Below, piece by piece: positions 23,822 to 48,604 of a stretch of DNA of 48,604 nt. The translations under genes and the position numbers were made by a program. The stretch is taken from NCBI GenBank assembly GCA_019695115.1, contig JAIBAP010000044.1, positions 1 through 48,604 of the forward strand, given 5' to 3'. Every line of letters begins with the position of its first letter. The stretch's first letter is position 1. This DNA is from Caldilineales bacterium (GTDB taxonomy: Bacteria > Chloroflexota > Anaerolineae > J102). The notes under the pieces are model-generated. The model was not told where the DNA came from. It made no database searches and saw only the letters and a program-made list of their open reading frames with translations.

Positions 23822-23863
23822 GATATTCGAGCTTATTGCCCCTCTGCTTGGAGTCAGAACTCT

Positions 23864-26841: not shown

Positions 26842-29800
26842 ATGAGCGGCGATTCCCGCAGGGGCGTGATGCCCCGCTTCACGATCAAGTTCGTCGGCAC
26901 GCCCTATTGTCGCCAGATCCGATTTGTGATCGTGGCTGCGATTCTGGCCGCCTGTTTGGGATCCCTACTTTTCATGGCTCTGCCGCGCGCCGTCGCCGAA
27001 CCGGACAGCCTTTATCCCCGCCGACTTTTTGGCACCGGTGAAGACCAGACGCGTGTAGTGCTGACCGGCGATATGAACAAGGACGGCGCCCTTGACTTGA
27101 TTGTGGGCAATGCCGACGATCGGAGTTTTGTCTATCTCAATGACGGCGTCGGCAATTTCGATTGGCCCGGCAGCGCTCGTCCCTTCGGCGCCGACTCGGA
27201 CAAGAACTGGGGATTGGCCGTGGCCGATATCGATGGCGATGGCGACCTCGACATCGTTGCCAACCATGCCATCTTCCTCAATGACGGCGCCGCCCATTTC
27301 GACGGCCCCAATGCTGGGCGCGCTTTCGCCGATCCCGATGACGAAAAAGGCATCGTGGCCGTGGGCGACCTGAACGGAGACGCCGCCTTCGACATCATCG
27401 TTGGCGACGACAACGACCCCGACATCGTCTATCTGAACGATGGGGCCGGCAACTTCTACTCTGGCAAAGTGGATTGTCAGGCCGCACCTGCCGACGTGCG
27501 CTGCCTCTCGTTACCGCCACAAGCATCGGTGTTGGCGGCCTCATCGCCATCTGAGGCGACAGACAAGTGTACGTGGCAGGCCCAGCACGAACCAGGTACG
27601 ACGAGCATTGCCCTGGGTGATCTGGACAACGACGGCGATCTGGACATTGTCATCGGGAACTGCTATGAACCCAACCTTGTCTATTACAACGATGGCGCCG
27701 CCGGCTTCCCGCCGCCAGAGGTCATCCCCCCTGCCGAACCGGTCAACGGCCCCGATGAAACCGCAGCCATCGCCTTAGGCGACCTGGATGGGGATGGGTA
27801 TCTCGATCTGGTGGTGGGAAACTATAACTCCAACGACAACAACGTCATTCACTTCAACCGCAATGGTCACTTCAGTGATACAGTCCTGCTCGGCCCTGGC
27901 AGCGACGAAACCTTTGCTCTTGCTCTAGGTGATGTGGACGGCGATGGCGATCTGGATATCGTCGTCGGCAATTCCATTGTCTCCAATGAAGACAAGAAGG
28001 CCAACATCATCTACCTGAACGACGACAAAGGCGGTTTCTACAACACCGCCAATCAGGACATTGATTGCGCGGCGCCACCTCAAAACGCCCGCTGCATCAG
28101 CTTCGCCAAAGAAAACACGCGTAGCCTGGCCTTGGGCGATGTGGACAACGACGGCGGTCTCGATGTCATCGTCGGGAATCGCGCCCAACAAAACGTCATC
28201 TACTTACTCAGCGATGGGCTGGGCCGCTTTGCCATTGGCCAGAAGGTCAGATTCGGCAACCAGGTCGATACGAGAGCCACCGCCCTCGCCGATCTCGACC
28301 GCGATGGCGACCTCGACTTGTTGTTCGGCAACTGGAAGAACCGAGCCGTGTTGCTGATCAACGATGGTCATGGCGGCTTCCCCGCCACCCCCGCCGACTG
28401 CGCTGCCCCGGTGACGGGGGTCGTCTGCTTTGGCTCGGCCGACGCCCAGACTCAGGCCATCGTCGTCGGCGACCTTGACGGCAACCACACCCTAGATGTC
28501 GTGTTGGGCCGTGAGGGGCAGAGCGATGAGCTCTACTTGAATGATGGTTCGGCCAATTTGGGATGGTTGAGCCGCCCCCGCACTCTTGGCGCGACGGGCG
28601 GCCCGACCCGCGCCCTGGCTCTGGGCGACCTCGACCGCGACGGCGACCTGGATCTTGTCGCCGCCTTCGACGACGGCCGGCAAAGCGTCATTTATTACAA
28701 CGATGGGCAGGCGGGCTTCTTCAGCGGGACCTTGAATTGCACTTCGCCGCCTGCCAACGTCGCCTGCTTTGGCTATGGTGACAACGACAGCCACGCTGTC
28801 GCAATTGGCGACCTCGACGGCGACGGCACTCTCGATCTCGTCTTGGGCGACGAGGGCGGACCAAACAGCATCTTTCTCAACGATGGCGCCGGGTATTTCG
28901 GTTGGTCGGGCGGCGTACGAGTTTTTGGCGCCGGGCGCGACACGACACATTCAGTGGCTTTGGGCGATGTCAATGGCGACGGCGCGCTCGACATCATCGC
29001 TGGCAATCGCAATCGGCAGGATTCAGGCATCGGTCAGGCCAATGCCATCTATCTCAATGATGGCGCCGGCAACTTCACGGGTCAGGCTGCCACGCGCGTT
29101 TTTGGTACATTGTTCGATAATACCGAAGACGTTCAAATCGCCGATCTCAACGGTGACGGCGCGCTCGATATCGTCGCTGGCAATCATGGCGAGCCGAGCG
29201 CCGTCTATCTCAACGATGGCGCCGGGAATTTCGACTGGAATGGCAGCGAACGCAGCTTGGGTTTGCAGTCCGATCGCATCTATACGCTTGCTGTGGGTGA
29301 CGTCGATGGCGATGGCGTCCCCGACATTGTCACCGGCGGCAAGACCTCAGAGTGGGTTTTGCGCAACCGCCACCGCCGCCTGGTTGCCTTGCCCAATAAT
29401 CCACCCTACGTCGCCGTCACTCGTCCTGTCCCTACGGCCAATGCCGGCTTTTTTTCCACCCCTATCCTCCTGACCGGCAGCCAGATCAGCATCACTTACA
29501 GCCTTTTCGACCCCGAAGGCGACCCGATTGACCACATCGCCGCCTTTTACTCGCTCGATGGCGGCGGCGTCTGGCAACCGGCGCTCCCAACCACGGCGAC
29601 GCCGACTACCGACTTGACCGCAAACGCTTCCTACACCTTCGTTTGGGATACATATGCTTCGGGCGTGTTTGGTCGCTCGGACGATGTGCTTTTCCGGCTA
29701 CAAGCCTATCCCGCTATCCGGCCTCGCTCTCACGCTCTCCCCGGCCCCTACCTCTGGCCGTGGGCGACGGCGACGACATTTCCGTTTCGGGTGCAGGGCA

Positions 29801-32400
29801 CGCAAGTGCGTGTGTACCATGACGCACCCGCGCCCGGCAATGAGGCCGCCGGAGCACTTGTCTATCGCCTGCGCAAAGACCAATCCGGCAGCGCCCTGCC
29901 GTTGGGCAATCAGCTCGGCCATCCCGCGCCTACCGACCGTCTGGGTTATCTGTTCACACCTGCGCGCCTGGAGCCGGGAGACCGATTGGCGGCGCTGTGG
30001 CCGGTGACAGCGACCAAAAGCTACACGCTTTACTATACCAGCGCCGGGCCAACGCCAACCGGCCTCGATATGACCGCCGTAACCCAGCCTGGCCTGCAAA
30101 CCCTGGTTGTCTCGCCCGACCATCCCCTACTCCTCTTCAATCTCGATGTATCGCTGGAGTGGGATGCACGCAATGACGCCTCCTTCCTCCAGCAACTGCG
30201 CCTCGATCTGGAGCGGACATCGGAACTGATCTTCGACTGGAGCAACGGCCAGGCAGCCCTGGGCCAGGTGACGATCTACCAGAACCGTGAACACTGGCTC
30301 GACGCTCACATTCGCATCTATGCCACCAATCGCCTGCGGCCGTGGGCCGGGCAGGGCGGCATCGTCTCGTCTCCCGTCGCCGACCCCGACCGCAGCAGCA
30401 TCAGCTATTGGCCTGGTCAGGTGCGGATGGGGGCAACTTGGAATCGCTATGGTTCGACCGGCGGCAACCTGGGCGAGGATTGGCCGCGCGCCCTGGCGCA
30501 CGAACTTGGGCATTATCTGTTCTATCTCGATGACAACTATTTAGGGCTGGATGCCAACTATCTGCTGAAGTTATTGACCGATGACTGCCCTGGCGCCATG
30601 AGCGACCCCTACTCGGCGATCAACGACGAGTTCCGACCGGCGACCGATTGGTTGCCCGCCTGCCAGGAGACACTGGCTCAGCACAGCACCGGCCGCTCGG
30701 ACTGGGCCAGCATCATTGCCTTCTATCCCGGTATGGCCGCTCCCTCGACTCCCTTTGGCGCCGTCAACCCCGGTCCCAGCGCCCTGCCTCTGGCCGTGAC
30801 CACCATCCAGCAACGCGCCCCTATCACACCAGTGGCGACGTTGGAATCGCCTCTGTTCTATCTGGTGAACGAGAACGGAGGTCGGGTGCAGCCGGGGGGC
30901 AGCGCCGGCGCCTATCTGTATCAGGGCGATTTTGTGATCGACCTGGGCAACCCCACCCAGGACCGAGTTCTGGCCCGAGGCGCAGCCGTTGGCGACCGGC
31001 TGTGTGTCTATGAACCAGCGGCGCTGCATTTGGGCTGCGAGACAATCCACCCCAACGATGAACAACTGACTTTGCGTCTGGCGCCAGATTGGACGCCTCA
31101 GATCACCGTCTCGCCCGTCACTTCTCGCACCATCGAGGTGGCGGTGAGCCATCTCGATCCGGGACTGGCCTTGATGGGTCGGCTGTATCCGGCGAACGGC
31201 CCTGCCCCCACAGCGGTTCCCCTCGTTACAGTCAACGACGGCTATCATGCCACCTTCCAGATGCCTGAACCCACCTTCGAAGGGCATCTGCAGGTGTGGG
31301 TGGCTGAGGCGGAGCCACGCCGCGAGGCCGTATCTTCGTTCGTCATCGGCGGCCCGCCGGGCTACCAGCGCGGCGGGGGAGGATATCAACGTGGGGGCGG
31401 CGGTTACCAGCGCGGCGGCGGCGCGCCGGTGGGTGATCCTGATGGTCAGGCGACCTTGTTCGCACAAGACCTCAACCTGGGTGAGAACGATTTCCTAACC
31501 TTCGAGACCTTGCTGCAAAGCCCCGCCCCGCCGACCTGGGCGACGGTGGTGGGACGTGCCTATCGTCTGAGCACCTACTCGTCGTCGGTGCAGTTCGACC
31601 GCGCTTCGGTCAGTTTCAGTTACTTCGAGCGAGACGTCCCGCCCGGATTGGAGGAGAACATCGAGATCTATCGTTGGGATGGCCAGACGTGGCAGCCATT
31701 GGCAACCACGCTCGATCGCTATCGCAACTTTGCCTCAGCTGCCTTTCCCGGTTCTGGCGTCTATGCCCTGATGACGAGCCTGCGTATCCCTCTTTCTGGC
31801 CCTGGCTGGAATGATGTCCACTACTTGCAGCGCGATACGCGTCCGGTGGCAGAGGTCTTGCAGGCGCTGGACGGCTATTACAGCGTGGCGTACTCGCAGG
31901 ATCCGACTACCGGCGTGTGGAGTTTGTTCGCAGCCGATGTCCCCGCCTGGGTCAATGATCCGTTGGAGTTCCGCTATGGCCGACACTATTGGTTGCACAT
32001 CACAACCGACATTCCCTACCTCCGTCTCCGCGGGGGCGATCCGCAGGCGCTGGCCGCCAACGGCATCGACCTCCCTCCGGCCGCCTTTTACGGCCCTTTG
32101 CTTCACGATGAAGGTTTCATCCCCCGACCTGGCTTGGAAGTCAGCGCCTGGGTGAACGGGCATCGTTGTGGGACGGCGACGACACGAATGGAGGATGCTC
32201 AGGTCGTGTACGTGATCAAGGTCAGCGCCGATGGCAGTGGCAATACAGACGGCTGCGGCAAAGAAGGTCGCGTGGTCGTCTTTCAGGTCGATGGGCGGCC
32301 GATGGCGACCACGGCAGCCTGGGACAACCGTTACGCCCGGTTCTTGCCGCTGGCCAGGTCGTTACAATATCCGGTTTATTGGCCGCGGGTGAAGCGTTAG
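26842..32400 (+). CDS. Giant surface protein: 14 FG-GAP repeats plus HELGH zinc site
   Basis: This 1852-residue protein begins with a basic stretch and one hydrophobic segment (about 26-50), a signal peptide or anchor. Residues about 55-840 hold 14 FG-GAP/VCBS repeats. Each has a calcium loop such as DVDGDGDLDIVVGN and most have a following IYLNDG strand; they form beta-propeller blades. An Ig-like part (about 860-960) comes next. Near 1215-1232 is LAHELGHYLFYLDDNY, with His1220, Glu1221 and His1224 as a zinc-protease HExxH core. The C-terminal third is beta-rich and includes three copies of YQRGGG from 1508. GGAG lies 10 nt before the ATG. It probably sits outside the cell as an adhesin with a possible peptidase; the substrate is unknown. 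Confidence 0.87.
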   Translation: MSGDSRRGVMPRFTIKFVGTPYCRQIRFVIVAAILAACLGSLLFMALPRAVAEPDSLYPRRLFGTGEDQTRVVLTGDMNKDGALDLIVGNADDRSFVYLNDGVGNFDWPGSARPFGADSDKNWGLAVADIDGDGDLDIVANHAIFLNDGAAHFDGPNAGRAFADPDDEKGIVAVGDLNGDAAFDIIVGDDNDPDIVYLNDGAGNFYSGKVDCQAAPADVRCLSLPPQASVLAASSPSEATDKCTWQAQHEPGTTSIALGDLDNDGDLDIVIGNCYEPNLVYYNDGAAGFPPPEVIPPAEPVNGPDETAAIALGDLDGDGYLDLVVGNYNSNDNNVIHFNRNGHFSDTVLLGPGSDETFALALGDVDGDGDLDIVVGNSIVSNEDKKANIIYLNDDKGGFYNTANQDIDCAAPPQNARCISFAKENTRSLALGDVDNDGGLDVIVGNRAQQNVIYLLSDGLGRFAIGQKVRFGNQVDTRATALADLDRDGDLDLLFGNWKNRAVLLINDGHGGFPATPADCAAPVTGVVCFGSADAQTQAIVVGDLDGNHTLDVVLGREGQSDELYLNDGSANLGWLSRPRTLGATGGPTRALALGDLDRDGDLDLVAAFDDGRQSVIYYNDGQAGFFSGTLNCTSPPANVACFGYGDNDSHAVAIGDLDGDGTLDLVLGDEGGPNSIFLNDGAGYFGWSGGVRVFGAGRDTTHSVALGDVNGDGALDIIAGNRNRQDSGIGQANAIYLNDGAGNFTGQAATRVFGTLFDNTEDVQIADLNGDGALDIVAGNHGEPSAVYLNDGAGNFDWNGSERSLGLQSDRIYTLAVGDVDGDGVPDIVTGGKTSEWVLRNRHRRLVALPNNPPYVAVTRPVPTANAGFFSTPILLTGSQISITYSLFDPEGDPIDHIAAFYSLDGGGVWQPALPTTATPTTDLTANASYTFVWDTYASGVFGRSDDVLFRLQAYPAIRPRSHALPGPYLWPWATATTFPFRVQGTQVRVYHDAPAPGNEAAGALVYRLRKDQSGSALPLGNQLGHPAPTDRLGYLFTPARLEPGDRLAALWPVTATKSYTLYYTSAGPTPTGLDMTAVTQPGLQTLVVSPDHPLLLFNLDVSLEWDARNDASFLQQLRLDLERTSELIFDWSNGQAALGQVTIYQNREHWLDAHIRIYATNRLRPWAGQGGIVSSPVADPDRSSISYWPGQVRMGATWNRYGSTGGNLGEDWPRALAHELGHYLFYLDDNYLGLDANYLLKLLTDDCPGAMSDPYSAINDEFRPATDWLPACQETLAQHSTGRSDWASIIAFYPGMAAPSTPFGAVNPGPSALPLAVTTIQQRAPITPVATLESPLFYLVNENGGRVQPGGSAGAYLYQGDFVIDLGNPTQDRVLARGAAVGDRLCVYEPAALHLGCETIHPNDEQLTLRLAPDWTPQITVSPVTSRTIEVAVSHLDPGLALMGRLYPANGPAPTAVPLVTVNDGYHATFQMPEPTFEGHLQVWVAEAEPRREAVSSFVIGGPPGYQRGGGGYQRGGGGYQRGGGAPVGDPDGQATLFAQDLNLGENDFLTFETLLQSPAPPTWATVVGRAYRLSTYSSSVQFDRASVSFSYFERDVPPGLEENIEIYRWDGQTWQPLATTLDRYRNFASAAFPGSGVYALMTSLRIPLSGPGWNDVHYLQRDTRPVAEVLQALDGYYSVAYSQDPTTGVWSLFAADVPAWVNDPLEFRYGRHYWLHITTDIPYLRLRGGDPQALAANGIDLPPAAFYGPLLHDEGFIPRPGLEVSAWVNGHRCGTATTRMEDAQVVYVIKVSADGSGNTDGCGKEGRVVVFQVDGRPMATTAAWDNRYARFLPLARSLQYPVYWPRVKR

Positions 32401-32962: not shown

Positions 32963-33157
32963 ATGCACGCACCGCCAACCACTCATACCGACATGACTGA
33001 CCGTGACGACCCCTTTCCGTTTCGTCATCTCAAACCATCCCAGGTTCGGCAGATCGATAATATGCTCGAAGAGATCGGCGATTTCGGTGAATTACGTTTG
33101 ATCATCGAAAAAGGTTGCCTGAAATATGTGGAGGTAGTAAAAAGCAGAAAACTATAA
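32963..33157 (+). CDS. Small protein resembling YezD/DUF2292
   Basis: This 64-residue protein has a polar, Pro-rich start and a compact C-terminal half, VRQIDNMLEEIGDFGELR followed by LIIEKGCLKYVEVVK. That helix then two-strand pattern resembles the small YezD-like DUF2292 proteins, whose job is unknown. GGGAG lies 9 nt before the ATG, which supports it as a real gene. It precedes the FHA cassette on the same strand, 254 bp away, and may be its first gene. Confidence 0.6.
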   Translation: MHAPPTTHTDMTDRDDPFPFRHLKPSQVRQIDNMLEEIGDFGELRLIIEKGCLKYVEVVKSRKL

Positions 33158-33411
33158 CTTTTTCCTGAGATGGAGCCATTCATCACAACAATTGATTACC
33201 AGTCAACCCACAAAGGCGCTGAGAACGTTGCAGCGGCAGCTCCGGCTCACGCCTCGCAAACTTCATCCGCTGGCGGCACTGATCCTTCAACCGATCTGCT
33301 GTATGGCGGAGCCTGCTCTGGAGAAGTGCAGCGCTGGGTGCATGCCGTGCCGATGAAGGGCAGGGGTTGGACGCAGGCTGGGTTCGGGCAACGCGGCCAG
33401 GAAGTGAAATA

Positions 33412-35010
33412 ATGGCGCTCGTAGACAGCTTGGACAACAACACATTACTGATCGTACTTGTCGCTGCGGTCGTACTGGTCGCTGTTGCCGCCTTGTTGTT
33501 AGGACGAAAACGCAAGCCGGCGGCAGGGGCAAGGACGGGCCAGGGGGTGGCTGTCGGGGGGGCAAGTCTGTACGTGTTGTCTGGCCCTGGCCAGGGTGGG
33601 CGCATCGCCCTCACCACGCCATCGGTGCGCATCGGACGGCGACAAGACTGTGAGATCCCTATCGACGCTCCCCTGGTTTCCAGGCAACATGCAATCATTG
33701 CCTACCAGAATGGTTCCTGGCGTCTGCTCGACCAGGAAAGCACCAACGGCACCTGGGTGAACGGCCAAAGGATCACGGAGCATCTTCTGCAAGCCAATGA
33801 TCACATTGGCATCGGTGCCACCGTCTTCGTTTTCCAGTTGGTCGGAGCTGAACGCACCCCTAGCCCCCAACCCATTCTTGCCCCTGTCGAGCGGCCTCGG
33901 CCCAGCACTGCTGCTGTAGCTCGCATTCATGATCTCAGCAACTATGATCTGTCGGTGGTGGGGCGGGGCGGCGAGGGAGTGGTGTATCGGGGGGTGGCCA
34001 GGGCCGATGGTTCGGTGGTTGCGATCAAGATCCTTGAAAGCCAGGACCCCTATCTAGAACGCAAATTCAGGCAGGTGGGGATGATGGGAAAACAGCTTCA
34101 GCATCCCCATATCGTTGCCATTTACCACTTCGGGCAGCACGATGGCACTTACTACATCATCATGGAATATGTGGATGGCGGTTCGCTGCGCGACCGCATG
34201 CAGGTGAACACGCCCTTCCCACCTGCTGAGGCGATTCGCGTCCTCGGACAAACATGCGAGGCGCTCGATTACGCCCACCGCCAACAAGTGGTCCACCGTG
34301 ATATCAAACCATCGAACATTCTGTTCGACGGCGCCAATCAGGTCAAGTTGAGCGATTTTGGCATCGCCCGCATCCTCTCTCAACCCACCGTCACCCAAAT
34401 GGGCATGATCCTGGGCACACCGGAGTACATGTCGTATGAACAGGCGCGCGGGGCGTCAGCGACCGCTCAGAGCGACATCTACTCGTTAGGCGTCGTCGCC
34501 TATCAGCTTTTCACCGGCCAACTGCCATTCGATGGCTCCGGGCCGGATGCGTGGCGCATCCTCGACAAGCACCTCAAGGAAAAGCCTCGCCCGCCGCGCC
34601 AGGTCAATCCCTCGCTGGCGCCTGCCATCGCCACGGCCATCATGCGTGCGCTCGAGAAAGATGCCGACAAACGTTTTCGCACGGGCGCAGAATTCGCCCG
34701 CGCCTTAGGATACAACGGCCAGACGCCGCCGGCGATGACTTCGGGCAGACTTGTGTCGAATACCGGCTACATCATCCCGATCACAGGAACAGATTTCCTC
34801 ATTACGAACTCTTTGCTCAATCATACATCGGTTTCCCGCGCGCATGCCCGCATCATTTTTCGCGAGAATCAGTTCTGGCTGCACGATGAAGGCTCGACCA
34901 ACGGCACCTGGCGCAATGGCCAGCGCCTGTCATCGGATTGGACGCCTTTGCAGGCGGGTGATGTGCTCACCTTTGGCCAGGTAAGCCTCCAGTTTCTGGC
35001 TGGACCATGA
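33412..35010 (+). CDS. Membrane FHA-kinase-FHA protein (Hanks-type)
   Basis: This 532-residue protein has one N-terminal membrane helix (about 11-31). FHA domain 1 (about 52-142) has RIGRRQD, Ser90, His93 and STNGTWVNG. A Ser/Thr kinase domain (about 179-440) has GRGGEG, Lys206, catalytic HRDIKPSN with Asp297, DFG 315-317 and GTPEYM. FHA domain 2 (about 455-530) has SVSRAHARI and STNGTWRNG. FHA domains bind phosphothreonine, so the kinase is caught between two readers. The helix-C Glu expected three residues after Phe219 is replaced by Val222, so activity may be altered. The ATG at 33412 has AGGAAG 8 nt before it. It opens a run of FHA genes. Confidence 0.9.
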   Translation: MALVDSLDNNTLLIVLVAAVVLVAVAALLLGRKRKPAAGARTGQGVAVGGASLYVLSGPGQGGRIALTTPSVRIGRRQDCEIPIDAPLVSRQHAIIAYQNGSWRLLDQESTNGTWVNGQRITEHLLQANDHIGIGATVFVFQLVGAERTPSPQPILAPVERPRPSTAAVARIHDLSNYDLSVVGRGGEGVVYRGVARADGSVVAIKILESQDPYLERKFRQVGMMGKQLQHPHIVAIYHFGQHDGTYYIIMEYVDGGSLRDRMQVNTPFPPAEAIRVLGQTCEALDYAHRQQVVHRDIKPSNILFDGANQVKLSDFGIARILSQPTVTQMGMILGTPEYMSYEQARGASATAQSDIYSLGVVAYQLFTGQLPFDGSGPDAWRILDKHLKEKPRPPRQVNPSLAPAIATAIMRALEKDADKRFRTGAEFARALGYNGQTPPAMTSGRLVSNTGYIIPITGTDFLITNSLLNHTSVSRAHARIIFRENQFWLHDEGSTNGTWRNGQRLSSDWTPLQAGDVLTFGQVSLQFLAGP

Positions 35011-35184
35011 AGACAGCAACGACCGCTTGGTCTGCATGATTGAAGGAATGATTGGCTGACAAGCGTCGCTGCGCCACCCCCCTTCTTTGCAACGAGGAGG
35101 TTTCTAACATAACATGACACGAGGAATCCCCCTATCTTTTTGCCTTCTACCGTTTTCGTTTTCTTCGCAGAAAAGGAGTGTTCT

Positions 35185-36141
35185 ATGAACACAAACCGGC
35201 CGGCCGGCATCGTCTTCATCGTTGTCTGGCTGTTTCTCAACGGCCTGAGTGCATTGGCGGCGACGGCGGCGCCCCTCTTCGCACTCGATCTGTTCAACAC
35301 CGTCGGTCTGTCTGGGGCCGTCCCTCTCCTGGGCGCAGTCGTAACGCTGGCGATAGCCGTCGCCTATTTTGCCATGGCCTGGGGGTTGTGGGAACTGCGC
35401 GATTGGTCACGGCTGGCTACCATGATCTTATCCGGAATCGGCCTGGTCCTTTATCTGATCGCGGCGGTGATGTTCCTGTTCGGCGTCGAGGTCATGGGCA
35501 TCCGGTTGAGCTTCCCCGGCATCGGCATCGGCTTTCTGATCGGCGCCGTGATCAACGGGCTTGTCATCTGGTATTTGCTCAAGCCCGACGTCCAGTCTAT
35601 CTATCAACAAGGGCAGATGAACATGGGCGGCAATTTCGCTACGGCCATTGGTGGCCCGCCCTCGCCGATGAGCTTCCCCGGCACTGAAACCGCCTGGCCC
35701 GGCGATTGGAACTCGTCGGCGTCGCTGCCCCCGCCTACTCCGCCCTCGGTCTCGTCGCTCCCCACCGCCTCCCCGGCTGCGCCTGTCATCGACGCCACCC
35801 GTCCCTTGCAGGAACCGGAACCGGTGCTGGGCTGGCTGGTGGTGCAGAGCGGCCCGCGCGCCGGCGAGCAACTCAAACTGCGCGCTGGCGCCAATGTGGT
35901 GGGCCGCGATGGGAGGGCGTCCCAGCTCCTGGTCGAGGAATCGTCGGTCTCTGGTGAACACGCCAAGATCCGCTGGGAAAACGGCGTGTTCGTGATCTAC
36001 GATCTGGCCAGCACCAACGGCACCTTCGTCAACGACCGTCGCATCGAGAAACAGCGGTTGATGGACGGCGATAAAGTGCGCATGGGGCGTATGGAGTTCA
36101 CTTTCAAGCAACTCGACCCCAGGCAGCGCCGCTCAGCGTAA
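35185..36141 (+). CDS. Membrane protein with C-terminal FHA domain
   Basis: This 318-residue protein has four membrane helices in the first 130 residues, a Pro/Ser-rich linker (about 150-215) and an FHA domain (about 215-312). The FHA core shows VVGRDGRASQ, SSVSGEHAKI and LASTNGTFVND, the set of residues that grips phosphothreonine. AAGGAG lies 6 nt before the ATG. It follows the FHA-kinase gene on the same strand. It probably brings a phosphorylated partner to the membrane; the membrane part is not a family I recognise. Confidence 0.87.
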   Translation: MNTNRPAGIVFIVVWLFLNGLSALAATAAPLFALDLFNTVGLSGAVPLLGAVVTLAIAVAYFAMAWGLWELRDWSRLATMILSGIGLVLYLIAAVMFLFGVEVMGIRLSFPGIGIGFLIGAVINGLVIWYLLKPDVQSIYQQGQMNMGGNFATAIGGPPSPMSFPGTETAWPGDWNSSASLPPPTPPSVSSLPTASPAAPVIDATRPLQEPEPVLGWLVVQSGPRAGEQLKLRAGANVVGRDGRASQLLVEESSVSGEHAKIRWENGVFVIYDLASTNGTFVNDRRIEKQRLMDGDKVRMGRMEFTFKQLDPRQRRSA

Positions 36142-36206
36142 CGCAGCCGTTACACCAAGTCGATTGATCGATCCTTCCCTCATTTCTCATGCTTCAGGAG
36201 GAAATC

Positions 36207-36686
36207 ATGTCAGAGTATGACCGAACCCAGGCTGTAGGCGGCGGCGCCTACCCTGTGGATTCACCGACGGAGGTCGTCGGTAGCCCGCGCACGGGCGGTG
36301 GCCAGCCGTACCGCAGTGAGTCGTTTCGTGGCGGCGATCAAACCATACGAATGGACATCAAGCGGCAGCCTCCGTCGTTTGCCTTTCTGGTGATCACCAA
36401 AGGACGGCGGCTAGGTGACATCCTGCGTCTCAATCTTGGCGAGACGAGTATCGGCCGCGAGACCGACAACGATGTCATCGTGGACGACGACTATTGCTCA
36501 CGATACCATGCTAAGGTAAAAGTGGAAGACGACGCGGAAGCCGACAACCAGAAGGCTTTTTTCATCTACGATCTGGCGACGCCCAATCATACCTATGTGA
36601 ACGACGAGGAGACCCTGCGAGCCAAACTGGTGGATGGCGCCAGAGTGCAGATCGGTGAGACCATCATGGTCTTCAAGAAGGTGTGA
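36207..36686 (+). CDS. Cytoplasmic FHA protein with threonine-motif tail
   Basis: This 159-residue protein has a disordered N-terminal tail (about 1-55) and an FHA domain (about 58-158). The FHA core shows SIGRETDNDV and YCSRYHAKV. The usual STNGT loop reads ATPNHTYVND, so the strict signature is altered. The tail carries three similar threonine motifs at Thr7 (DRTQAV), Thr21 (SPTEVV) and Thr46 (DQTIRM). This resembles GarA-type proteins, where a kinase phosphorylates a tail Thr and the protein's own FHA domain then grips it. AGGAGG lies directly before the ATG at 36207. The self-switch reading is inference. Confidence 0.85.
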   Translation: MSEYDRTQAVGGGAYPVDSPTEVVGSPRTGGGQPYRSESFRGGDQTIRMDIKRQPPSFAFLVITKGRRLGDILRLNLGETSIGRETDNDVIVDDDYCSRYHAKVKVEDDAEADNQKAFFIYDLATPNHTYVNDEETLRAKLVDGARVQIGETIMVFKKV

Positions 36687-36697
36687 AGGAGGCTGCT

Positions 36698-37033
36698 ATG
36701 GTGACACGTACAGAATATCTGAGCCAGCCGGGCCTGCACGTGGCCTGGCTGGTGGTGGCCTCAGGCCCACGGCGCGGCCGTGACATCCAGGTGCGCAAGA
36801 CCACCAATATCGGGCGCGAGGCCAAGAATCACGTCATCCTCGACGATGAGACCGTCTCGGCCGAACACGCGCGCATCCGCTTCGAAAACGGCGCCTATGT
36901 GCTCTATGACCTGGCCAGCAGCAATGGCACGATGTTGAACGGTGAGCGCATCCAGAAGGCGATGCTGCGGGACGAGGATCGCATCACCATCGGACGTCTT
37001 CAACTGGTCTTCAAAGAGACCAAGATCGATTGA
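36698..37033 (+). CDS. Minimal FHA-domain protein
   Basis: This 111-residue protein is little more than one FHA domain: IGREAKNHV at 38-46, VSAEHARI with Ser54 and His57, and LASSNGTMLNG near 72-82. It has no membrane segment. AAGGAGG lies 6 nt before the ATG at 36698, and the previous gene ends only 12 bp upstream. It is likely a small adaptor that links two phosphorylated or kinase partners. Confidence 0.88.
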   Translation: MVTRTEYLSQPGLHVAWLVVASGPRRGRDIQVRKTTNIGREAKNHVILDDETVSAEHARIRFENGAYVLYDLASSNGTMLNGERIQKAMLRDEDRITIGRLQLVFKETKID

Positions 37034-37048
37034 CAAGGAGTGACAGAC

Positions 37049-37933
37049 ATGGATCCAACCCTCTTCGGCGACGTAAGCGCCGGCATGTTGCGTTTTTTAG
37101 GCATCTGGTACAACGAATGGGGCGCGTTCCTGGGCTTTCTACTGGCCCTGGTCTCGGCCTTCGTCATCTTTCTCGATTCCATCCGCCAGAACATCGGCGC
37201 CCTGTGGTATAAGGTGGCGGCGGTGGTGGGCACGCTGCTGGCGCTGCCATCGCTGGTGTTGCGGGTTTCGCCCGAGTTGGGGAACCGCATCGGGCCGGCG
37301 CTGGTGCCTCTGGCCTTCGTGGGCGTGTTCGGCGCCGTCGTCGCCTTCCTGGCCATGATCACGTATCTGGCCTGGGGCCGGCGGGCGGAGCAAGCACAGA
37401 CTGCCTATGTCGAGTCGACCGTCGGCGTGGCTGGAGTCACCGAAGGCTACGGCCCCTCATTCACGCCGCCCTCCACCCCTGCTTACACGCCCGCGCCTCC
37501 CCAGATCTCTGTTCCTCATGCCTCGGCGCCAGTCGCGCCCGCTACCGTGCAAGTGGGGCCGGGATCGGGCGCGGGGCCGGCGCCTGCCGCAAATACAGTC
37601 ATTTTCAAGCGCCCGCCTAAAGAGATCGGCCAATTGATCGTTCGTAACGGGCAGCGTACTGGCCAAAGTTTCGCGTTGTCAGAAGAAACCAACATCGGTC
37701 GCGACGCACAAGGCAATCAGATTTCACTGGACGATCCTCAGATGTCGCGCTTCAACTCGCGTATCAAACTGGAGAACGGCGTCTTTGTGATCTACGACCT
37801 GGCCAGCACCAATGGCACCTTTGTCAACGGCCAGAAAATCCTGAAGCAGCCTCTCAAAGACCATGACGAGATCAAGATCGGCGACACTTCGTTTGCATTC
37901 ATCGAAGTCAAGAGCGCGGGCGGGCCTGCCTGA
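37049..37933 (+). CDS. Membrane protein with C-terminal FHA domain (second type)
   Basis: This 294-residue protein has three membrane helices (about 26-45, 52-72 and 84-110), a Pro/Ala/Thr-rich linker (about 130-185) and an FHA domain (about 195-290). The FHA core has TNIGRDAQGNQ and LASTNGTFVNG. The usual Ser-x-x-His reads MSRFNSRI, so the His is lost and binding may be weaker. The ATG at 37049 has AAGGAG upstream, 16 bp past the previous stop. The membrane part shares no sequence with the other membrane FHA protein. Confidence 0.86.
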   Translation: MDPTLFGDVSAGMLRFLGIWYNEWGAFLGFLLALVSAFVIFLDSIRQNIGALWYKVAAVVGTLLALPSLVLRVSPELGNRIGPALVPLAFVGVFGAVVAFLAMITYLAWGRRAEQAQTAYVESTVGVAGVTEGYGPSFTPPSTPAYTPAPPQISVPHASAPVAPATVQVGPGSGAGPAPAANTVIFKRPPKEIGQLIVRNGQRTGQSFALSEETNIGRDAQGNQISLDDPQMSRFNSRIKLENGVFVIYDLASTNGTFVNGQKILKQPLKDHDEIKIGDTSFAFIEVKSAGGPA

Positions 37934-37942
37934 CAACCATCG

Positions 37943-38025
37943 GGGCAAGATGCCATCTCGCCTTGCCCGCGCTACGCAGTAGTCCGGGTCAGACCCGAAA
38001 GGATTGCCAATCTCTTGGGTCTGGC
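37943..38025 (+). promoter_or_regulatory. Structured leader between FHA and VWA genes
   Basis: Two hairpins lie here. GGGCAAG (37943-37949) pairs with CTTGCCC (37962-37968). GTCAGACCC (37988-37996) pairs with GGGTCTGGC (38017-38025) with one G-U pair, and inside it GGATT (38001-38005) pairs with AATCT (38009-38013) across GCC. The second ends 17 nt before the GAGGAGG ribosome site of the VWA gene. It could tune translation or cut the operon mRNA into parts. No T-run follows. Confidence 0.5.
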
Positions 38026-38053
38026 GCTGTCGCAGTTGTTTCGAGGAGGAGCT

Positions 38054-39982
38054 ATGAACAAGAATCGTCTTATCTTCAGCCTGCTATCGGCTGCTGTCGT
38101 GCTGCTGGCGGCGGCCGCCGGCGCGCTGGCGCAGGCAGGAAGCGGGGCAGTGGAATTCGAGCCAGTCGAGGTCAACCACTTCCCGAAGATGCAAGCCGTG
38201 GTGACAGCGGTGGACGCCAACGGCATCCCTTTCACCGGCCTGACCGTCGGCAACTTCATCCTGGCCGAAGATGGCCAGAACGTCGAGGCCACGGCGACCG
38301 AGAAGATCAATCCGGTCGTGCCGGTTTCCTTGTTGCTGCTGATCGACAAGAGCGGGAGCATGTCGGCCAAAGGCAGCGTCGCTGGCAAGACCAAACTCGA
38401 CGAGGCCAAGGAGTCGGCGGTTCGCTTCTTGCAGAATCTGCAGCCCAGCGACCGCGCCGCCATCCTGGCCTTCGGCAGCCGGCGGGGCGTCCCCATCAAC
38501 CTCAACCAGGGACTGGACGATGACTGCAAGAGTGAGGAGATCAGCAAGGAGCGCAGTTTTACGGACGACAAGGGCGCCCTGATCAACTGCGTCAACAGCC
38601 TGGATACGATCGCCAACGTGGTGACAACGCCGCTCTATGACGCCGCCTACAAGGCGGTGGTAGAGGCCAAGAAAGAGGCGGAAGGGCAGGGAAATCGGCC
38701 GGTCGTGATTCTCTTCACCGATGGCAAGGATGACGACAGCACAGGCAACCCGGCCAGCGCCAACACGCGGCAGACGGCGGAACTGGCGGCCAAGCAGGAG
38801 AACATCGCCATCTTCACCATCGGCGTGGGCGCCGACGCCGACGCCGCCAATCTGCAGGCCCTGGCCCAGAATACCGGCGGCGCCTTCACCCAGGCGCCCG
38901 ACGCGGCCGGCCTCGATGCCATCTACACCGACATCGCCAATCGTTTGCGCACGCAGTACGACCTGACCTGGCAGTCGAAGGTAGAAGCCGATGGCAAACC
39001 GCACCAACTGGGCGTGAAAGTGGCAGTGAGTGGCAAGGAATTGGCCGGCCTGACCCCTTTCGTTCCCATCTGCACCGAACTTCCCGGCATCCGCTTCTTC
39101 TTCGAGCAACCTTCTCCTGTCTTTGCCTTCACTCGTGAGACCGAACGCAAGCCGCTGGATCCTGGTCAGGAATTCAAGACCAATTGGAAGCTCACGCCCG
39201 ATATTACCGCCTGCAACCTCATCGATCGGGTCGAGTACTACTTCGATGACGAACCAGAGCCTGCCGCTATAGCTCAAGCCGCCCCCTTCACTCTGATCTG
39301 GCCGGCCGACCATCCGGTGGATGAGCCAACATCCTACACGATCCGGGCCGTGGCCTACGACACACAAGGCAATCAGGGCGAAGCCTCGATCCCGTTGATG
39401 ATCACAAAAGGGGGTGGTATAGTCGAGTGGATTCCCCTCCTGATCGGTTTGGTGCTCCTGGTGGCTGTGGTGGTGCTTATCTTCGCCCTGCGCCGGCAGC
39501 GCCAGCCCGAGCCGATTTCGGGGCCGGGCGGGGGGGCGTTGCCCTACCCCGAACCGTTCCCGCCGATCGGTCGCACCACTGTGGGTGATTCCTCAACTCC
39601 GCCACCTCCAACCCCTCCATCTATCCCGATCTCACCTGGCCTAGGCTCACAACCTCCCCTGGCCCCGCCGCGGCCTAACCCCATCGCCTGGTTCGTGGTC
39701 ACGGCTGGGCCGGAAAAGGGCCGAGAGTTCCAGGTGCTCCGCACCGAGATGCGCATGGGCCGCGGCGGCGATAGCGAGATCCATCTGGAGGATGGTACGG
39801 TCTCGCGTGAGCACGCCACCCTGCGCTGGGAGAACGGCCAGTACTATCTTTACGACCTGGGCTCGGTGAACACGGCCAAGGTGAACGGCCGTGGCATTAC
39901 CAAGATGCGCTTGCAGGACAATGACCAGATCACGCTGGGCAATACGACCCTGGTCTTCAAGATGACCGGCCCCAACCGCTGA
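38054..39982 (+). CDS. Secreted VWA protein with membrane helix and cytoplasmic FHA domain
   Basis: This 642-residue protein has a signal peptide (ending about residue 27). A von Willebrand A domain (about 90-300) has the metal site LIDKSGSMS with Asp98, Ser100 and Ser102, and VVILFTDGKDDD further on. A beta-rich part (about 330-450), one membrane helix (about 457-478) and a Pro-rich linker follow. A C-terminal FHA domain (about 550-640) has MGRGGDS and VSREHATL. The STNGT loop reads GSVNTAKVNG, so it is altered. The VWA is outside and the FHA inside, so it can link an outside ligand to phosphothreonine partners. AGGAGG lies just before the ATG at 38054. Confidence 0.9.
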   Translation: MNKNRLIFSLLSAAVVLLAAAAGALAQAGSGAVEFEPVEVNHFPKMQAVVTAVDANGIPFTGLTVGNFILAEDGQNVEATATEKINPVVPVSLLLLIDKSGSMSAKGSVAGKTKLDEAKESAVRFLQNLQPSDRAAILAFGSRRGVPINLNQGLDDDCKSEEISKERSFTDDKGALINCVNSLDTIANVVTTPLYDAAYKAVVEAKKEAEGQGNRPVVILFTDGKDDDSTGNPASANTRQTAELAAKQENIAIFTIGVGADADAANLQALAQNTGGAFTQAPDAAGLDAIYTDIANRLRTQYDLTWQSKVEADGKPHQLGVKVAVSGKELAGLTPFVPICTELPGIRFFFEQPSPVFAFTRETERKPLDPGQEFKTNWKLTPDITACNLIDRVEYYFDDEPEPAAIAQAAPFTLIWPADHPVDEPTSYTIRAVAYDTQGNQGEASIPLMITKGGGIVEWIPLLIGLVLLVAVVVLIFALRRQRQPEPISGPGGGALPYPEPFPPIGRTTVGDSSTPPPPTPPSIPISPGLGSQPPLAPPRPNPIAWFVVTAGPEKGREFQVLRTEMRMGRGGDSEIHLEDGTVSREHATLRWENGQYYLYDLGSVNTAKVNGRGITKMRLQDNDQITLGNTTLVFKMTGPNR

Positions 39983-39991
39983 TCAGCCAAC

Positions 39992-40033
39992 CGTGAGAGC
40001 GGGAAACCAGGAAACTGGTAGCCCGCTCTCACG
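39992..40033 (+). promoter_or_regulatory. Long hairpin capped by a GAAA tetraloop before the kinase gene
   Basis: CGTGAGAGCGGG (39992-40003) pairs perfectly with CCCGCTCTCACG (40022-40033). After a 2x2 internal loop (AA/AG), ACCAG (40006-40010) pairs with CTGGT (40015-40019) around GAAA, a GNRA tetraloop. It sits between the VWA stop and the kinase ATG. With no T-run it is not a simple terminator. It could be an RNA control element or an mRNA-end protector. Confidence 0.65.
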
Positions 40034-40056
40034 GCCCCTCGCTCTCCAATCAGATC

Positions 40057-41955
40057 ATGGCGACGCCCGAACGCATCAAGTACTACCGCATCAAGCGCAA
40101 GATCGGCGCCGGCGGCATGGCGACGGTCTTCGAGGCCATCGACACGCGCAACCAGGGACGAGTGGCGCTGAAGGTGCTGCACCCGCATCTGGCCGACCAG
40201 CCGGCCTATGTGGCGCGTTTCCAGCGCGAAGCGCAGATGGCGATGACGCTGCACAGCCCGCACATCGTGCAGATCCTGGAGTATGGCGATGACCGGGGCC
40301 TGCACTACCTGGCTATGGAGTATGTGTCGGGCGTCACGCTGCAGCAGTTCATCCAACAGATGGGGGCGTTAGGGGTCAATCAGGCGCTGAACATCATCTA
40401 TCAGGCGGCGCTGGCGTTGGAAGAAGCGAATCGCCATCACATTGTCCATCGCGACGTCAAGCCTCATAACATCATGATCCTGCCCAACGGCATGATCAAG
40501 GTGATGGACTTCGGCATCGCCCGCGATGTGATGATGGACTCGATGACGATGACGGGGATGTTCGTGGGTACGCCGCAGTATTCCTCGCCCGAACAGGCTG
40601 GCGGCGAGCGCGTGGACATCCGCTCCGACATCTACTCGTTGGGCGTGGTGCTGTACCAGCTGCTGACGGGGACGGCGCCCTTCCAGGCTGATACGCCGCA
40701 GGCGCTGTTGATGCGGGTGATGCAAGGAAATCCGGTGCCGGTGCAGTCGATCCGCATCGATCTGCCGGCGCCGGTGGTGCGGCTTGTGGATAAGATGTTG
40801 GCCCGCGAGCCGGAGCGTCGTTTCCAGAATCCATCCGAATTGCTGGCGGCGTTGGTCGCTTTGACCGGCAATGTTCCCCAGGAAGACGCCCGCAGCGAGA
40901 TGGCAACCATGGTGGCGCCATTGGTGGCACGGACGCCGCCGCCGCCGCCAGACGACAAACGTTCTCGTCGGACGGTCTATGCCGTGGGCTTCGTGGCGGT
41001 TGCGGCCGTGCTCACGGCCCTGGTCGTCGTCCTCTGGCGGCCCTGGCGGATCGTTTCTCAGGGCGCCACGCCTGCGCTGACGCCAACTACAGCGGCGGCA
41101 TCGGTGGGGGCGACGCCGACCCTGCTTCCGACAGCACCGACCGCAGCACCGGCGTCATCCCACACGCCCACGCCATCGGCGCCGGCGTTGACCGGTCCCG
41201 CCGATGGCAGCGCCTTCCGGGATGAAGTGATCCTGACCTGGCGTCCGGTGGCCGGCGCCGCCGGCTTCCGGGTGGAGACGCGGCGCGCGGATCAGCGGAG
41301 TTGGCGCCCGTGGCCGGTCGAGGCGGGGAGCGAGAGTCTGCGGTTGGTCTTCAGCGACCATCCCGACTATTTTGGTGAGACAGACGACACTTACTGGTGG
41401 CGGGTGGTCGCGCTCGACCAGGGAGGCAACGCGGCCGCCTACTCGCAGGCGCGGCGGTGGGAGTACAGACCGGCATCGACATTCCCCGCCAGTTCGACAC
41501 TGTCGCCTTCTGCCACGGCAACGGGTTCGCCGACCCCAGCCCTGACGCCAACGCGTTCACCAACGACCTCGAGGCGCACACTTACCGTCTCGCCAACGGC
41601 AACCAATACACCCACAAGCCCGGCAAGATCTACACCGACAGAGGCCCCAACCCCGGCCCCAGTTGGCGAGACGCCGACGGCGACCGCAAGGCCAACTGCC
41701 ACGCCCACTGAAAAGCCGTCACCGCCGGCGCCAGCTACTGATACGCCCACTACAGCGCCGACCGATACGCCGACGCCCGAAAAGCCAACACCGCCGCCGC
41801 CAGCCACCGATACGCCGACGCCCGAAAAGCCACCACCGCCGACGCCGTCGAGCACAGCGTTGACCTGGCAAGAACCCTCCCTCAGTGGATCGGGTCTGGC
41901 TCTCATCTGCGGGATCGGTCTGGCCGGATGGGCGTCCAAACGGCGAAGATTGTGA
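40057..41955 (+). CDS. Receptor-type Ser/Thr kinase with outer domain and hydrophobic C-terminus
   Basis: This 632-residue kinase has a full catalytic domain (about 10-270): [12 protein letters not shown], Lys39, Glu58, HRDVKPHN with Asp133, DFG 151-153 and [11 protein letters not shown] basic stretch leads to one membrane helix (about 306-328). Outside are a Thr/Pro-rich linker, an Ig-like domain (about 375-470, [16 protein letters not shown]) and a long TPT-rich stalk. The last 20 residues are hydrophobic and end WASKRRRL, like a surface-anchor tail or second membrane helix. There are no PASTA repeats. The ATG at 40057 has no good ribosome site, and a strong hairpin precedes it. Its end overlaps the next gene by 28 bp. 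It may phosphorylate the FHA partners upstream. Confidence 0.91.
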
Positions 41956-44342
41956 TCAGGACGGCGACAGCGTTGCGCTTCGAGGTCATCCGGAGGCGCC
42001 GACCCGTCGGCATCACGATCATGGCGTTACTGGTTTTTCTTGTGTCCGTGCGCTCTCTTCAGGGCAAGGCAGACACCGCTGTCGTGATTGCAGGGCCTGG
42101 AAGTGGCTCCACATCTGCTGCGCCCTTGCATACCGAGATCCCCATTCGGGCGACGGCTGCCCACGAGTCGGCGCCGGACGTCGTCTTTGGCAGCCTTCGC
42201 CACGAGTATCTCGTCGTCTGGCGTGAGATTACGGGGAGCCAGGCGGCGGTGATGGCGCAACGCATCAGCGCCGCAGGCGCGCTGATCGGCCCCATCATCG
42301 TGGTAGCGGACAGCGACCCCGGAACGAACGGCGCCTACGCCGCAGTGGCCTACAACCTCCTTGATGATGAATACCTGGTCGTCTGGGATCGATGGTTCCC
42401 TTCGGGGTTCAACGGCGGCATCGTCGCCCAACGACTGACCGGGAGCGGCGCCAAAGTGGGAGTCAATTTCTGGATCCTGGATCGGCATTGGGGCGAGGTT
42501 CGGCCCGATGTCGCTTTCTTGCCCGACCGCGCCGAGTATCTGGTGGCCTGGCATGACTACCGCTATCCGCCGGGGGGGACGCGCGGCAACATTTTCGGCC
42601 AACGGCTGTTACGTGACGGCGAGCTGACCGGCTCGGAAATCTCGATTGTCGAGATCGATGGCAACCAGTGGACTCCCAAGCTGGCAGCTGTTGCCGGAGG
42701 CGACGCTTATGTCGTGGCCTGGGTGGATGCACGCAACGGCAATGACGTTCCTCTGATCTTCGCCAGAAGTGTGAGCGGAAACGGCGCCACGGTGGGGCCG
42801 GAGGTGCGGGTGGACGAGGGCGGCATGGGGCATTGGTATCCTGCTGTGCTCTACAATCCCCAAATTCAGGAAGTGCTAGTGGCCTGGCAAGATCACCGCG
42901 TGCCCGAGACACCGCGGGCCTCGGTGCGTCGTTTTTCGGCATCGCTCAGCCCACTGGCTCCCAGCCAGGCGCCACGAGTGGGGATTTCACATGGCCGTCC
43001 TGCTCTGGCCTTCAACCTGCAACGCGGTGAGTACTATCTGGCATGGATGGAGGGCGAGCCACATCAGGTGGGCGGGCAGAGGTGGAGCCTGGCCGGGCAG
43101 GCTATCGGAACACCGGAGATCGTGGCGCCACATCCCTATGAGCAGAGTGCGCCAGCGATTGCTGCCAGCACGACCAACAGTGATCTTCTGCTGGTCTGGG
43201 AAGACTATCGACAAGGGACGAGCAACGCCGACATCTATGGGGTATTGATTGGTCAGGCCATGCCAACGGCGACGCCCACGCCTACGGTCACACCCAGCCC
43301 AACCTTCACCTCCACACCGTCGCCAACTGCAACCCCCACGTTCACGCCCAGCCCGTCCTTTACCCCGACTGCAACTGTCACACCTACGCCTTCCGCCACT
43401 CCGTCGATCACGCCAATACCCAGCCCGGTTCCGTCGCCCACTCCCACCGCCTTGCCGAACGAGTGTCGTCTGTACGAACCCAACGACAACCTTGTTGCCG
43501 CCGCTGGCCCGTTTGCTAACGGCCAGGTCATCCTGGCTTATCTCTGTCCCGGCGACCCGGATGACTTTTACTTCATCGATTTGCCTGCGGACACGCGTGT
43601 GGTTGATGCGCGGCTTGCGAATCTATCAGGTGCACTCAATGCTGACCTCTATCTGTACGACCCGGACGACGTGATCGTTGGTCGTAGCACGCAGCCGGGG
43701 GTCTCCTCAGAACGCATCCAGTTCAATCCTCTGTTCAGCGGTCGCTACAAGGTGCGCGTCCATGCGATCAGCGGCTGGAACACGATGCCTTACTCATTGG
43801 TGGTCTTCTGGTCTGGAACGCCGAAGAGCTTCTTGCCGTTCGTAACCTATCAACGCCCACCCACCCCGACGCCAACCGCCACCCCTTCCTCGACTCCTAC
43901 CCCAACCATAACACCCACCCCCGGCCCTTGCCAGCGTTATGAGCCGAACGATAGTCTCAGCAGCGCGTTTGGCCCCCTCGCCAACGGTTCGGTGATCGAA
44001 GTCGCCTTGTGCGACGGCGATCCGGAAGACTACTATCAGGTGGCGCTGGCCGGCGCTGCGACCTTGCGGGTGGATCTGGACAATCTCCCTGCGGGCACGG
44101 ACTACGACCTCTATCTCTACGATGCCACTGCTCCGCAGAATTACCTGGCGCGGTCGGTCAATGTCGGGACAACGCCGGAGTCCATCCAAATCAATCTATC
44201 GTCTGGGAGTTATGCGCTGCGCATCTATCCATCGACGTCAGGGCGGAGCAACCAACCCTACAGGTTGGCTGTCAACTGGGCGCCGGAAGTTGACATTGGC
44301 AGGGAGTCGATGTTGGAGCTTCCTTCCATTTTGACCACGTAA
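41928..44342 (+). CDS. Surface protein: seven-repeat predicted propeller, TP-linkers, two PPC domains
   Basis: This 804-residue protein has a basic start and a hydrophobic segment (about 27-45), a signal or anchor. Residues about 80-440 hold seven repeats with EYLVVWRE-type strands: [48 protein letters not shown] and LLLVWED. Seven such repeats suggest a seven-bladed beta-propeller. A Thr/Pro-rich stalk (about 445-505) and two pre-peptidase C-terminal domains follow, each opening with YEPND and holding ADLYLYD or [10 protein letters not shown] 42021 is an alternative start. It overlaps the kinase stop by 28 bp, so it may be the partner or ligand sensor of that kinase, which is inference. Confidence 0.83.
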
Positions 44343-47400: not shown

Positions 47401-48604
47401 CTGGTTTACGCCGACGATACGTTCGCCGAAGCCGGCAATACCTTTGTCGAACAAGCCCTGCGCTATCTGGGATTGAGCTACACCTCGTACTATGCCGATT
47501 GCGATGGTTTTGGGGCGGCGCTCGTGGGCGGTAGCTGGGATGTCGTTCTTGTCGCGCACGACAATTGGTATTGCCTGGGAAACTACTGGAGCGAATTGGA
47601 AAGCTATCTGCAAAGCGGGGGCAAGGCAGCCATCGAGACTTTCGATATCGATGGTTCTAACAGCGAAGCCACGACGCTGTGGACAACTCTGGGCATCGTT
47701 CCGATGAGTGACCTAACCGCGATAGCGCCGGTCTATCGTTGGGCGCTGAGCGACCGCCTCTTTTCATCCCCGCGCGGTGTGCCCGATATGACCGACCTCC
47801 AGATCCCGTATCTCGATAACGGCGATCGCATCCAGATAGTGGGAGCGACAACGGCGAAGGCGGGGTTCACCACGACGGCACAGGCGAACCAGTCAGCGAT
47901 CGCTGTGGCTTTGGGTGGACGAGCTATCATCGACAGCTGGATTGTCAGCCAGGCCCGTTCCGATCAGGATAGCGACGGTCTGGCCGATGGCCTGGAACTA
48001 TGGATGAACCAGATCAGCTACCTCACTGGTGCCACTGGCAGCGACGCTGCCTGGCTGAGCGCCAATCCAGTCTCTGGCACTATTCCGGGCGGAGGCAGTC
48101 AAGACATCGAAGTCACTTTCAACGCCGCCGGTTTACGCGCGGGTGTTTACAACGGCGCGCTCATGATCTTCCACGACGGCAATGTCCTCAACCCTCTCGT
48201 CGCACCAGTTGAGTTCACTGTCAGGGCCGCCACTCCTACCCCCACGCCGACGTCTACACGAACTTTCACTCCCACACCAACACCTACACGCACACCCACA
48301 CGCACGCCGACGTTGACGCCGACGCCGACTTCCACCCCGACCGCTACGGTCACGCCGACGTCAACCCTGACTCCATCCCCTACCTCGACTCCCCTGGCGC
48401 CACAATGTGTGCTCGGCGAACCCAACGATTCGTTTGGGGCGGCCGCAGGGCCGTTGCTGAACAATCAGGCGGTCGTAGCTGCGCTTTGCAGTGGCGACCC
48501 TGATGACTTCTACCGCGTCGATCTACCTGCCAATACCGAAGTCCGAATCACACTCGGCGGTTCTCCGGGCAACCTCGATGCCGACCTCTATCTTTACAAC
48601 GCCG
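44422..48604 (+). CDS. Large NHL-repeat surface protein, partial at the right edge
   Basis: The frame is open for 1394 codons and runs past the window end, so the C-terminus is missing. A signal-like segment (about 5-40) is followed by about ten NHL repeats (about 95-640), with lines such as GTIYVADEQNHRIQRFSATG. A PA14-like domain (about 645-770) and a PPC domain (about 772-890) come next. An immunoglobulin-like sheet appears split: its first half is near 893-932 and its second half near 1210-1270. Between them lies a region with strands like LRILVYADD and WDVVLVAHD. A TP-rich stalk and a second PPC follow. The start is uncertain: ATG 44362, 44422 and 44434 are all in frame and none has a good ribosome site. 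Confidence 0.85.
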   Translation, partial: MRVVMKSIARCIHAQCSLIVLMLLTAVVVKLAAGGMALAAPSTGESVAPLQATPSPAPGQPAPPADLTSEPNAAPRETAPVATADDALPDKFLFTIGAQPPVGQFNFPRGLGIAANGAVFVTDFNNRLQGFSATGAFQTARGSAGTGEGAFWDALDVAVSGSGEIYVADTGNNRIQRFGPDLSFRSSFIIHGPAQLAFAADSTLYVAQPNAHVIVRLDAVTGALLGGFGSYGAGNGQFAYPRGVAVAPNGTIYVADKENHRIQYFSVSGQYQGQWGSSGEGNGQFISPSAVAVARDGSVYVADYDLHRIQRFSATGQFLSKWGSHGSGDGQFANPVNIEIAPDGTIYVADEQNHRIQRFSATGQFIAKWGANGQADSQFNGLRDVAVSSDDSMYVVDLGNARIQQLAKTGLFLRKWGSAGTGNGQFFTPEGIGVAPNGNVYVADSGNHRVQRFGSDGVFLGKWGANGTGNGAFNYPRDVAVAPDGTVYVTDYLNNRVQRFSATGQYLGKWGALGTGDGQFNSPSGIAIAGNGTVYVTDYLNHRVQYFAANGQFLGKWGSFGNGDGQFNGPWGIAVGRDGTIYVTDWINFRVQRFTATGQFLGKWGQWHHSEGNFAWPTGVALASDGNAYVSEWDTRRVQVFGPTYADTWRAEFFGNRWLADRAVLIQNVAAIDYQWNDDSPGAGVPIDNFSSRWQRRVWFEPGAYRFTVSADDGVRFWVDDKLLIESWQDPQVTTLQANLALDRGYHRLRVEHYEAFGFAGIRLAWEVLPDIYEPDDACAQARAIDANAAAQTHNFHVTGDVDWVRFEATIGNRYTIETSNLGINSDTIMALYRSDCVTSIGLDDDGGPGLGSRIVWVANEDETLYARVLPFSGDRTGANSNYDLALTAVVLAPKIAPSSLSAVVDFGGNTTQHLTLSNPSASSIQFVINDTETSRPAAAGSMEILATQAARQDKQERKGVVPPTAAAVTNSGKDLAQPLAYRYHGPMTNLRILVYADDTFAEAGNTFVEQALRYLGLSYTSYYADCDGFGAALVGGSWDVVLVAHDNWYCLGNYWSELESYLQSGGKAAIETFDIDGSNSEATTLWTTLGIVPMSDLTAIAPVYRWALSDRLFSSPRGVPDMTDLQIPYLDNGDRIQIVGATTAKAGFTTTAQANQSAIAVALGGRAIIDSWIVSQARSDQDSDGLADGLELWMNQISYLTGATGSDAAWLSANPVSGTIPGGGSQDIEVTFNAAGLRAGVYNGALMIFHDGNVLNPLVAPVEFTVRAATPTPTPTSTRTFTPTPTPTRTPTRTPTLTPTPTSTPTATVTPTSTLTPSPTSTPLAPQCVLGEPNDSFGAAAGPLLNNQAVVAALCSGDPDDFYRVDLPANTEVRITLGGSPGNLDADLYLYNA

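Follow-up and report, generated by a model that had tools for sequence, protein, structure and literature searches.

GarA of Mycobacterium and OdhI of Corynebacterium are small FHA proteins in which a kinase-phosphorylated threonine of the N-terminal tail can be bound by the protein's own FHA domain; both are stand-alone inhibitors of metabolic enzymes. The TerY-P triad, which is linked to tellurium genes, combines a TerY-type VWA protein with a PP2C phosphatase and a kinase. The FHA domain of DgcB of Bdellovibrio bacteriovorus binds a phosphothreonine of the N-terminal tail that is preceded by Glu at -2 and followed by hydrophobic residues at +2/+3 (PMC6733907). PpkA, which has an extracellular VWA domain, phosphorylates Fha1 (PMC3224232), and ArnA and ArnB of Sulfolobus, an FHA and a VWA protein, form an interacting, phosphorylation-linked pair (PMC6509490). 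Fusion of FHA to Ser/Thr kinases in cyanobacteria and Chloroflexus was noted in 2005; the portion of that account available to us mentions neither the operon nor the tail motif described below (PMC1262709).

The locus described here lies in a contig of a Caldilineales bacterium (JAIBAP010000044.1, 48,604 nucleotides, referred to in full as the window). Its likeness to GarA and OdhI is the context of a tail threonine; here, however, such a tail is found in several proteins of a single operon, some membrane-bound and some soluble. DgcB has a GGDEF enzyme, whereas the partners found here have no fused output enzyme. The threonine phosphorylation pathway of the T6SS (PpkA, PppA, Fha1; PMC3224232, PMC5995506) shares with this locus a kinase, a PP2C (here in relatives), FHA and an extracellular VWA, but in the present case the VWA is carried by an FHA protein and the kinase (A) itself bears two FHA domains. 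The FHA and VWA of ArnA-ArnB are on separate proteins, while here they are fused across the membrane. Compared with the cyanobacterial and Chloroflexus FHA-kinases, kinase A has FHA domains on both sides of the kinase.

Organization of the FHA-kinase cassette

The genes of the cassette, designated A to H, and the tail motifs discussed below are as follows (coordinates of the window).
33412-35010, + strand: A, TM helix, FHA (33625-33816), Ser/Thr kinase (33952-34677), FHA (34813-34977) (Pfam, hydropathy scan)
35182-36141, + strand: B, four TM helices followed by FHA (35896-36087) (Pfam, hydropathy scan)
35797-35808, + strand: tail motif TRPL of B (T206), 18 residues ahead of the FHA profile start
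36207-36686, + strand: C, soluble FHA protein with a long N-terminal tail, FHA at 36444-36656
36342-36353, + strand: tail motif TIRM of C (T46)
36698-37033, + strand: D, small soluble FHA protein, FHA at 36806-36994
36710-36721, + strand: tail motif TEYL of D (T5)
37040-37933, + strand: E, three TM helices followed by FHA (37691-37882) (Pfam, hydropathy scan)
37595-37606, + strand: tail motif TVIF of E (T186), 18 residues ahead of the FHA profile start
38054-39982, + strand: F, signal peptide, VWA (about 38330-38926, DKSGS motif), beta domain, TM (about aa 452-480), FHA (39752-39940)
40057-41955, + strand: G, Ser/Thr kinase (40084-40827), one TM, Pro/Thr-rich C-terminal half predicted outside
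41928-44342, + strand: H, N-terminal TM/signal, secreted-type, two PPC domains, doubtful member (Pfam)

A single strand thus carries, between 33412 and 41955, seven FHA domains and two Ser/Thr kinases, all above the Pfam curated cut-offs, together with one VWA. The first-pass annotation, made from the sequence alone, had given the same totals of FHA domains and kinases, and its order of genes also held: Pfam confirmed five successive FHA genes (33412-35010, 35182-36141, 36207-36686, 36698-37033 and 37040-37933), the first of them FHA-kinase-FHA, and on the same strand the VWA-TM-FHA gene (VWA and FHA in 38054-39982) and a second kinase (Pkinase in 40057-41955). The membrane helices that it had placed in several FHA proteins were recovered by the hydropathy scan (four in B, three in E, one each in A and F, with a single one also in kinase G), and the close spacing at 36207-37933 corresponds to gaps of 11 bp between C and D and 6 bp between D and E. 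The entire host genome (5.99 Mb, 135 contigs) contains 20 kinases over the cut-off, six PP2C and 24 FHA domains; given this last number, the presence of seven FHA domains within about 6.3 kb is far from chance.

The kinase of A has all of its motifs (K206, HRD295, DFG315) and threonines in its activation loop (QPTVTQ). F is predicted to cross the membrane once, with the VWA outside and the FHA inside, and C has two extra T-x-x-V sites (T7 and T21). Two corrections apply. The pocket residues are not intact throughout, as the near-invariant pocket Arg is missing from A's second FHA and E has SRFN where most relatives show SxxH; and the supposed surface propeller at 41928-44342 (H) yielded only PPC domains in Pfam. 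Relatives of H and of the next gene, I, were sought in the other operons described below and none were found, so that counting either gene as part of the cassette is unsupported.

By both sequence and fold, the solved structures nearest to C are those of GarA (E 1.6e-26), followed by OdhI and DgcB. Neither C nor D can be assigned to the GarA/OdhI family, their scores with the NCBIfam OdhI model (51.8 and 66.7, respectively) being far under the cut-off of 200. The kinases likewise do not identify a PASTA kinase locus of the actinobacterial pknB-pstP-fha type: PknB_PASTA_kin scores were 276.6 for A and 328.8 for G, below the cut-off of 450.

Other genes of the window include a STAND-like ATPase with TPR repeats (23711-26740) and, in the same orientation as the cassette and upstream of it (26842-32400), a 1852-aa protein with FG-GAP repeats and a HELGH metalloprotease-like motif.

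A conserved operon headed by the FHA-kinase-FHA gene

The same operon, with A as its first gene, occurs in about 20 other genomes; A is followed there by 0-5 FHA genes, usually a PP2C, F (signal peptide-VWA-TM-FHA), and further kinases and phosphatases. Homologues of A that have both FHA domains occur in families f4, f12, f14, f21, f35, f43, f45 and f50 of the class, and a full-length homologue also occurs outside the class, in family f71 (G591). F, or its VWA part, is located downstream of A on the same strand in all 21 assessable loci, a count that leaves out L122 and L136, whose contigs end too early. One further locus (L127) has only a partial A homologue and no F. The order of the window is repeated in G030 (L069), which carries A, B, one small FHA gene, E, a PP2C, F and a kinase. 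The window itself has the defining pair, an FHA-kinase-FHA gene and then a signal peptide-VWA-TM-FHA gene on the same strand. On the basis of gene order and domain composition, the window cassette is one member of a conserved operon, putatively of membrane phosphosignalling, and not a chance cluster. The operon is apparently undescribed: no published description was found in a literature that was mostly open-licence and included few subscription journals, and its novelty is thus provisional.

A Ser/Thr kinase, an outside VWA, FHA domains and, in relatives, a PP2C are also the ingredients of the PpkA-PppA-Fha pathway, and the operon could on these grounds be the regulatory arm of a secretion system. 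We consider this very improbable, given that the VipB sheath gene is absent from the whole genome, that the VWA is fused to FHA and neither kinase has a VWA match, and that no secretion gene was recognised among those operon neighbours that were searched; the first two of these points, VipB being the T6SS gene searched for, also argue against membership of the T6SS pathway proper. The first-pass annotation had regarded the cassette as a candidate envelope phosphosignalling system, and this view survived the refutation test set for it: the genes are also neighbours, with their order unchanged, in other families of the class as well as in a single genome from outside, and no known secretion or cell-wall operon was found to have the identical set.

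Within or near such operons, three loci encode proteins that combine an ABC-transporter-like part with two or three FHA domains (L072:13136-15718, L070:3045-6317 and L130:10619-13909), with Pfam support for the first two; their architecture recalls that of Rv1747. Elsewhere in the host genome, contig C94 carries a SIR2-like and nSTAND protein, resembling defence proteins, between FHA and kinase genes (L074:6895-9924).

The earlier statement that the cassette has no PP2C is correct for the window, where a search of the entire 48.6-kb contig with a PP2C profile built in this study gave no match, but not for the system. Of the 18 loci long enough to be judged, 16 contain a PP2C, which adjoins F in 15, the window and L070 being the two without (locus and PP2C tallies were read from maps by eye and not scripted). 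PP2C is therefore a usual but non-defining part of the operon, and its absence from the window is unusual. This could be explained by loss or by the end of the contig. The window is one entire contig, seen up to its end within a PPC domain of gene I (48304-48604). All six PP2C of the host genome lie elsewhere, five of them in contig C51. At the start of C51, in the orientation expected of a continuation of the window, a fragment (L139:13656-14111) shares 85% identity with the final PPC domain of H, and beyond it follow, on one strand, kinases and the five PP2C genes. No DNA overlap between the window end and C51 was found when sought; the two contigs may conceivably be neighbours.

A conserved threonine in the tails of the partner FHA proteins

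The linkers preceding the FHA domains of the partner proteins share a short motif, T-x-x-hydrophobic, located at positions -26 to -17 relative to the FHA profile start and most commonly at -18. It was found in 79 of 97 partner linkers, compared to about 19.6 after shuffling. No such enrichment was observed for A's own FHA domains (6/49; 7.6 expected), other FHA proteins of the fetched genomes (4/18; 2.9 expected) or FHA proteins whose loci belong mostly to other phyla, a set derived from a scan with a generic kinase pattern (8/67; 8.4 expected). There was no clear excess in the PP2C of the operons (11; 7.3 expected) or in kinases lacking FHA (8; 8.4 expected), and the motif was not replicated in the FHA linkers close to a held-out set of VWA hits taken from other settings (2/20; 3.1 expected). 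The motif is thus confined to the A-headed operons, a few relatives and the triads described below, and is not general to VWA-FHA proteins. Expected values were obtained by shuffling each linker, and as homologues are not independent, the figures gauge conservation and not significance.

Because the range of -26 to -17 was picked after looking and the +3 class is part of the motif definition, independent support comes from the invariance of the threonine, the preference at +2 and the negative controls. In an alignment of 25 small FHA proteins, the column of T46 of C is Thr in every sequence, as invariant as G83, S98 and N127 of the FHA domain, while the tail has otherwise diverged. Position +3 is L/I/M in 24 of the 25 and position +2 is I/L/V in 19. 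Among the partners in general, an acidic residue is often present at -2. The tail Thr is also found in all 19 aligned relatives of F. In the window copy, B, C, D and E carry the motif and F does not.

A strict position and hydrophobic residues at +2 and +3 would equally suit a structural or linker feature, such as a short strand that stays unphosphorylated and docks on the FHA domain, and the tail of DgcB binds its FHA domain even when unphosphorylated. Such a role appears improbable to us, since the position is always Thr in the 25 small FHA proteins, the same operon carries a kinase and phosphatases, and the tail of C is modelled at low confidence (about 65 around T46).

The window copy and its host family

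The copy of the operon in the window deviates in several respects, namely the F without tail Thr, the second FHA of A without Arg, the SRFN of E and the contig without PP2C. It is atypical, and either has drifted or belongs to an operon that runs on past the contig end. A was not found above threshold elsewhere in the bacterium's own family. Most fetched genomes of this family (L071, L077, L078, L083-L088) carry a triad of FHA genes resembling B, D and E with no kinase beside it; in two of them, the triad is near DUF2085 and DUF4013 membrane genes. The triad retains the tail motif though A was not found there, which means that A cannot be the sole kinase that matters. In phylogenetic trees, the window A falls on an unresolved fork and the window F groups weakly with G219; the trees are thus compatible with both transfer and old family loss.

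Proposed mechanism

The context of the tail threonine resembles that of the phospho-tails of GarA, OdhI and DgcB, and C is nearest to GarA and OdhI. From this we infer that the kinases probably phosphorylate the tails and that FHA domains bind them, assembling a membrane complex under the control of the VWA. We assign this reading, which is based on sequence and on analogy, a probability of roughly 55%. An outside event sensed through the VWA of F would activate or recruit kinase A, and probably G too. The kinase would phosphorylate B, C, D and E at their tail threonines, and the phosphorylated tails would be bound by FHA domains, both those of A and those of adjacent partners. This binding would assemble or rearrange a membrane-bound complex, which could be reset by PP2C, whose gene adjoins F in most relatives and lies at other loci in the genome studied here. 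The operon would then operate as a GarA/OdhI/DgcB tail switch in multiple copies. The suggestion of the first-pass annotation that the proteins form one complex relaying an outside signal gains in this respect from the conserved tail threonine and from the way in which F spans the membrane, and it keeps its inferential character.

The same tails could instead act as in GarA and OdhI, each phosphorylated tail folding onto its own FHA domain and blocking separate targets, so that the operon would encode a bank of independent inhibitors and no single complex. GarA and OdhI are indeed the closest solved relatives, and the motif and an FHA domain share one protein in B, C, D, E and most F homologues. 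We nevertheless regard this switch as unlikely, as the operon has no target enzyme and many of its proteins are membrane-bound. In the structure model of C, moreover, only about 12 residues separate T46 from the protein's own first FHA strand (residue 59), fewer than between T14 and V32 of DgcB. Owing to this short spacer, the model slightly favours binding in trans over folding back.

Returning to the complex assembled through phosphorylated tails, a more specific form of it would be a phospho-scaffold, in which kinase A marks the tails and FHA domains bind neighbours in trans, giving head-to-tail chains under an extracellular VWA. We find this version doubtful and put it forward as speculation. 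Head-to-tail chains are known for TIFA in animal cells (PMC6733907).

The partners of FHA-rich kinase clusters are usually unknown, and for such clusters the motif provides a concrete, testable target by singling out a particular threonine in several of the proteins. Should these tails prove to be phosphorylated and recognised by FHA domains, the operon would represent a kinase circuit whose wiring is legible from sequence and, if true, possibly a bacterial counterpart of the animal FHA scaffolds.
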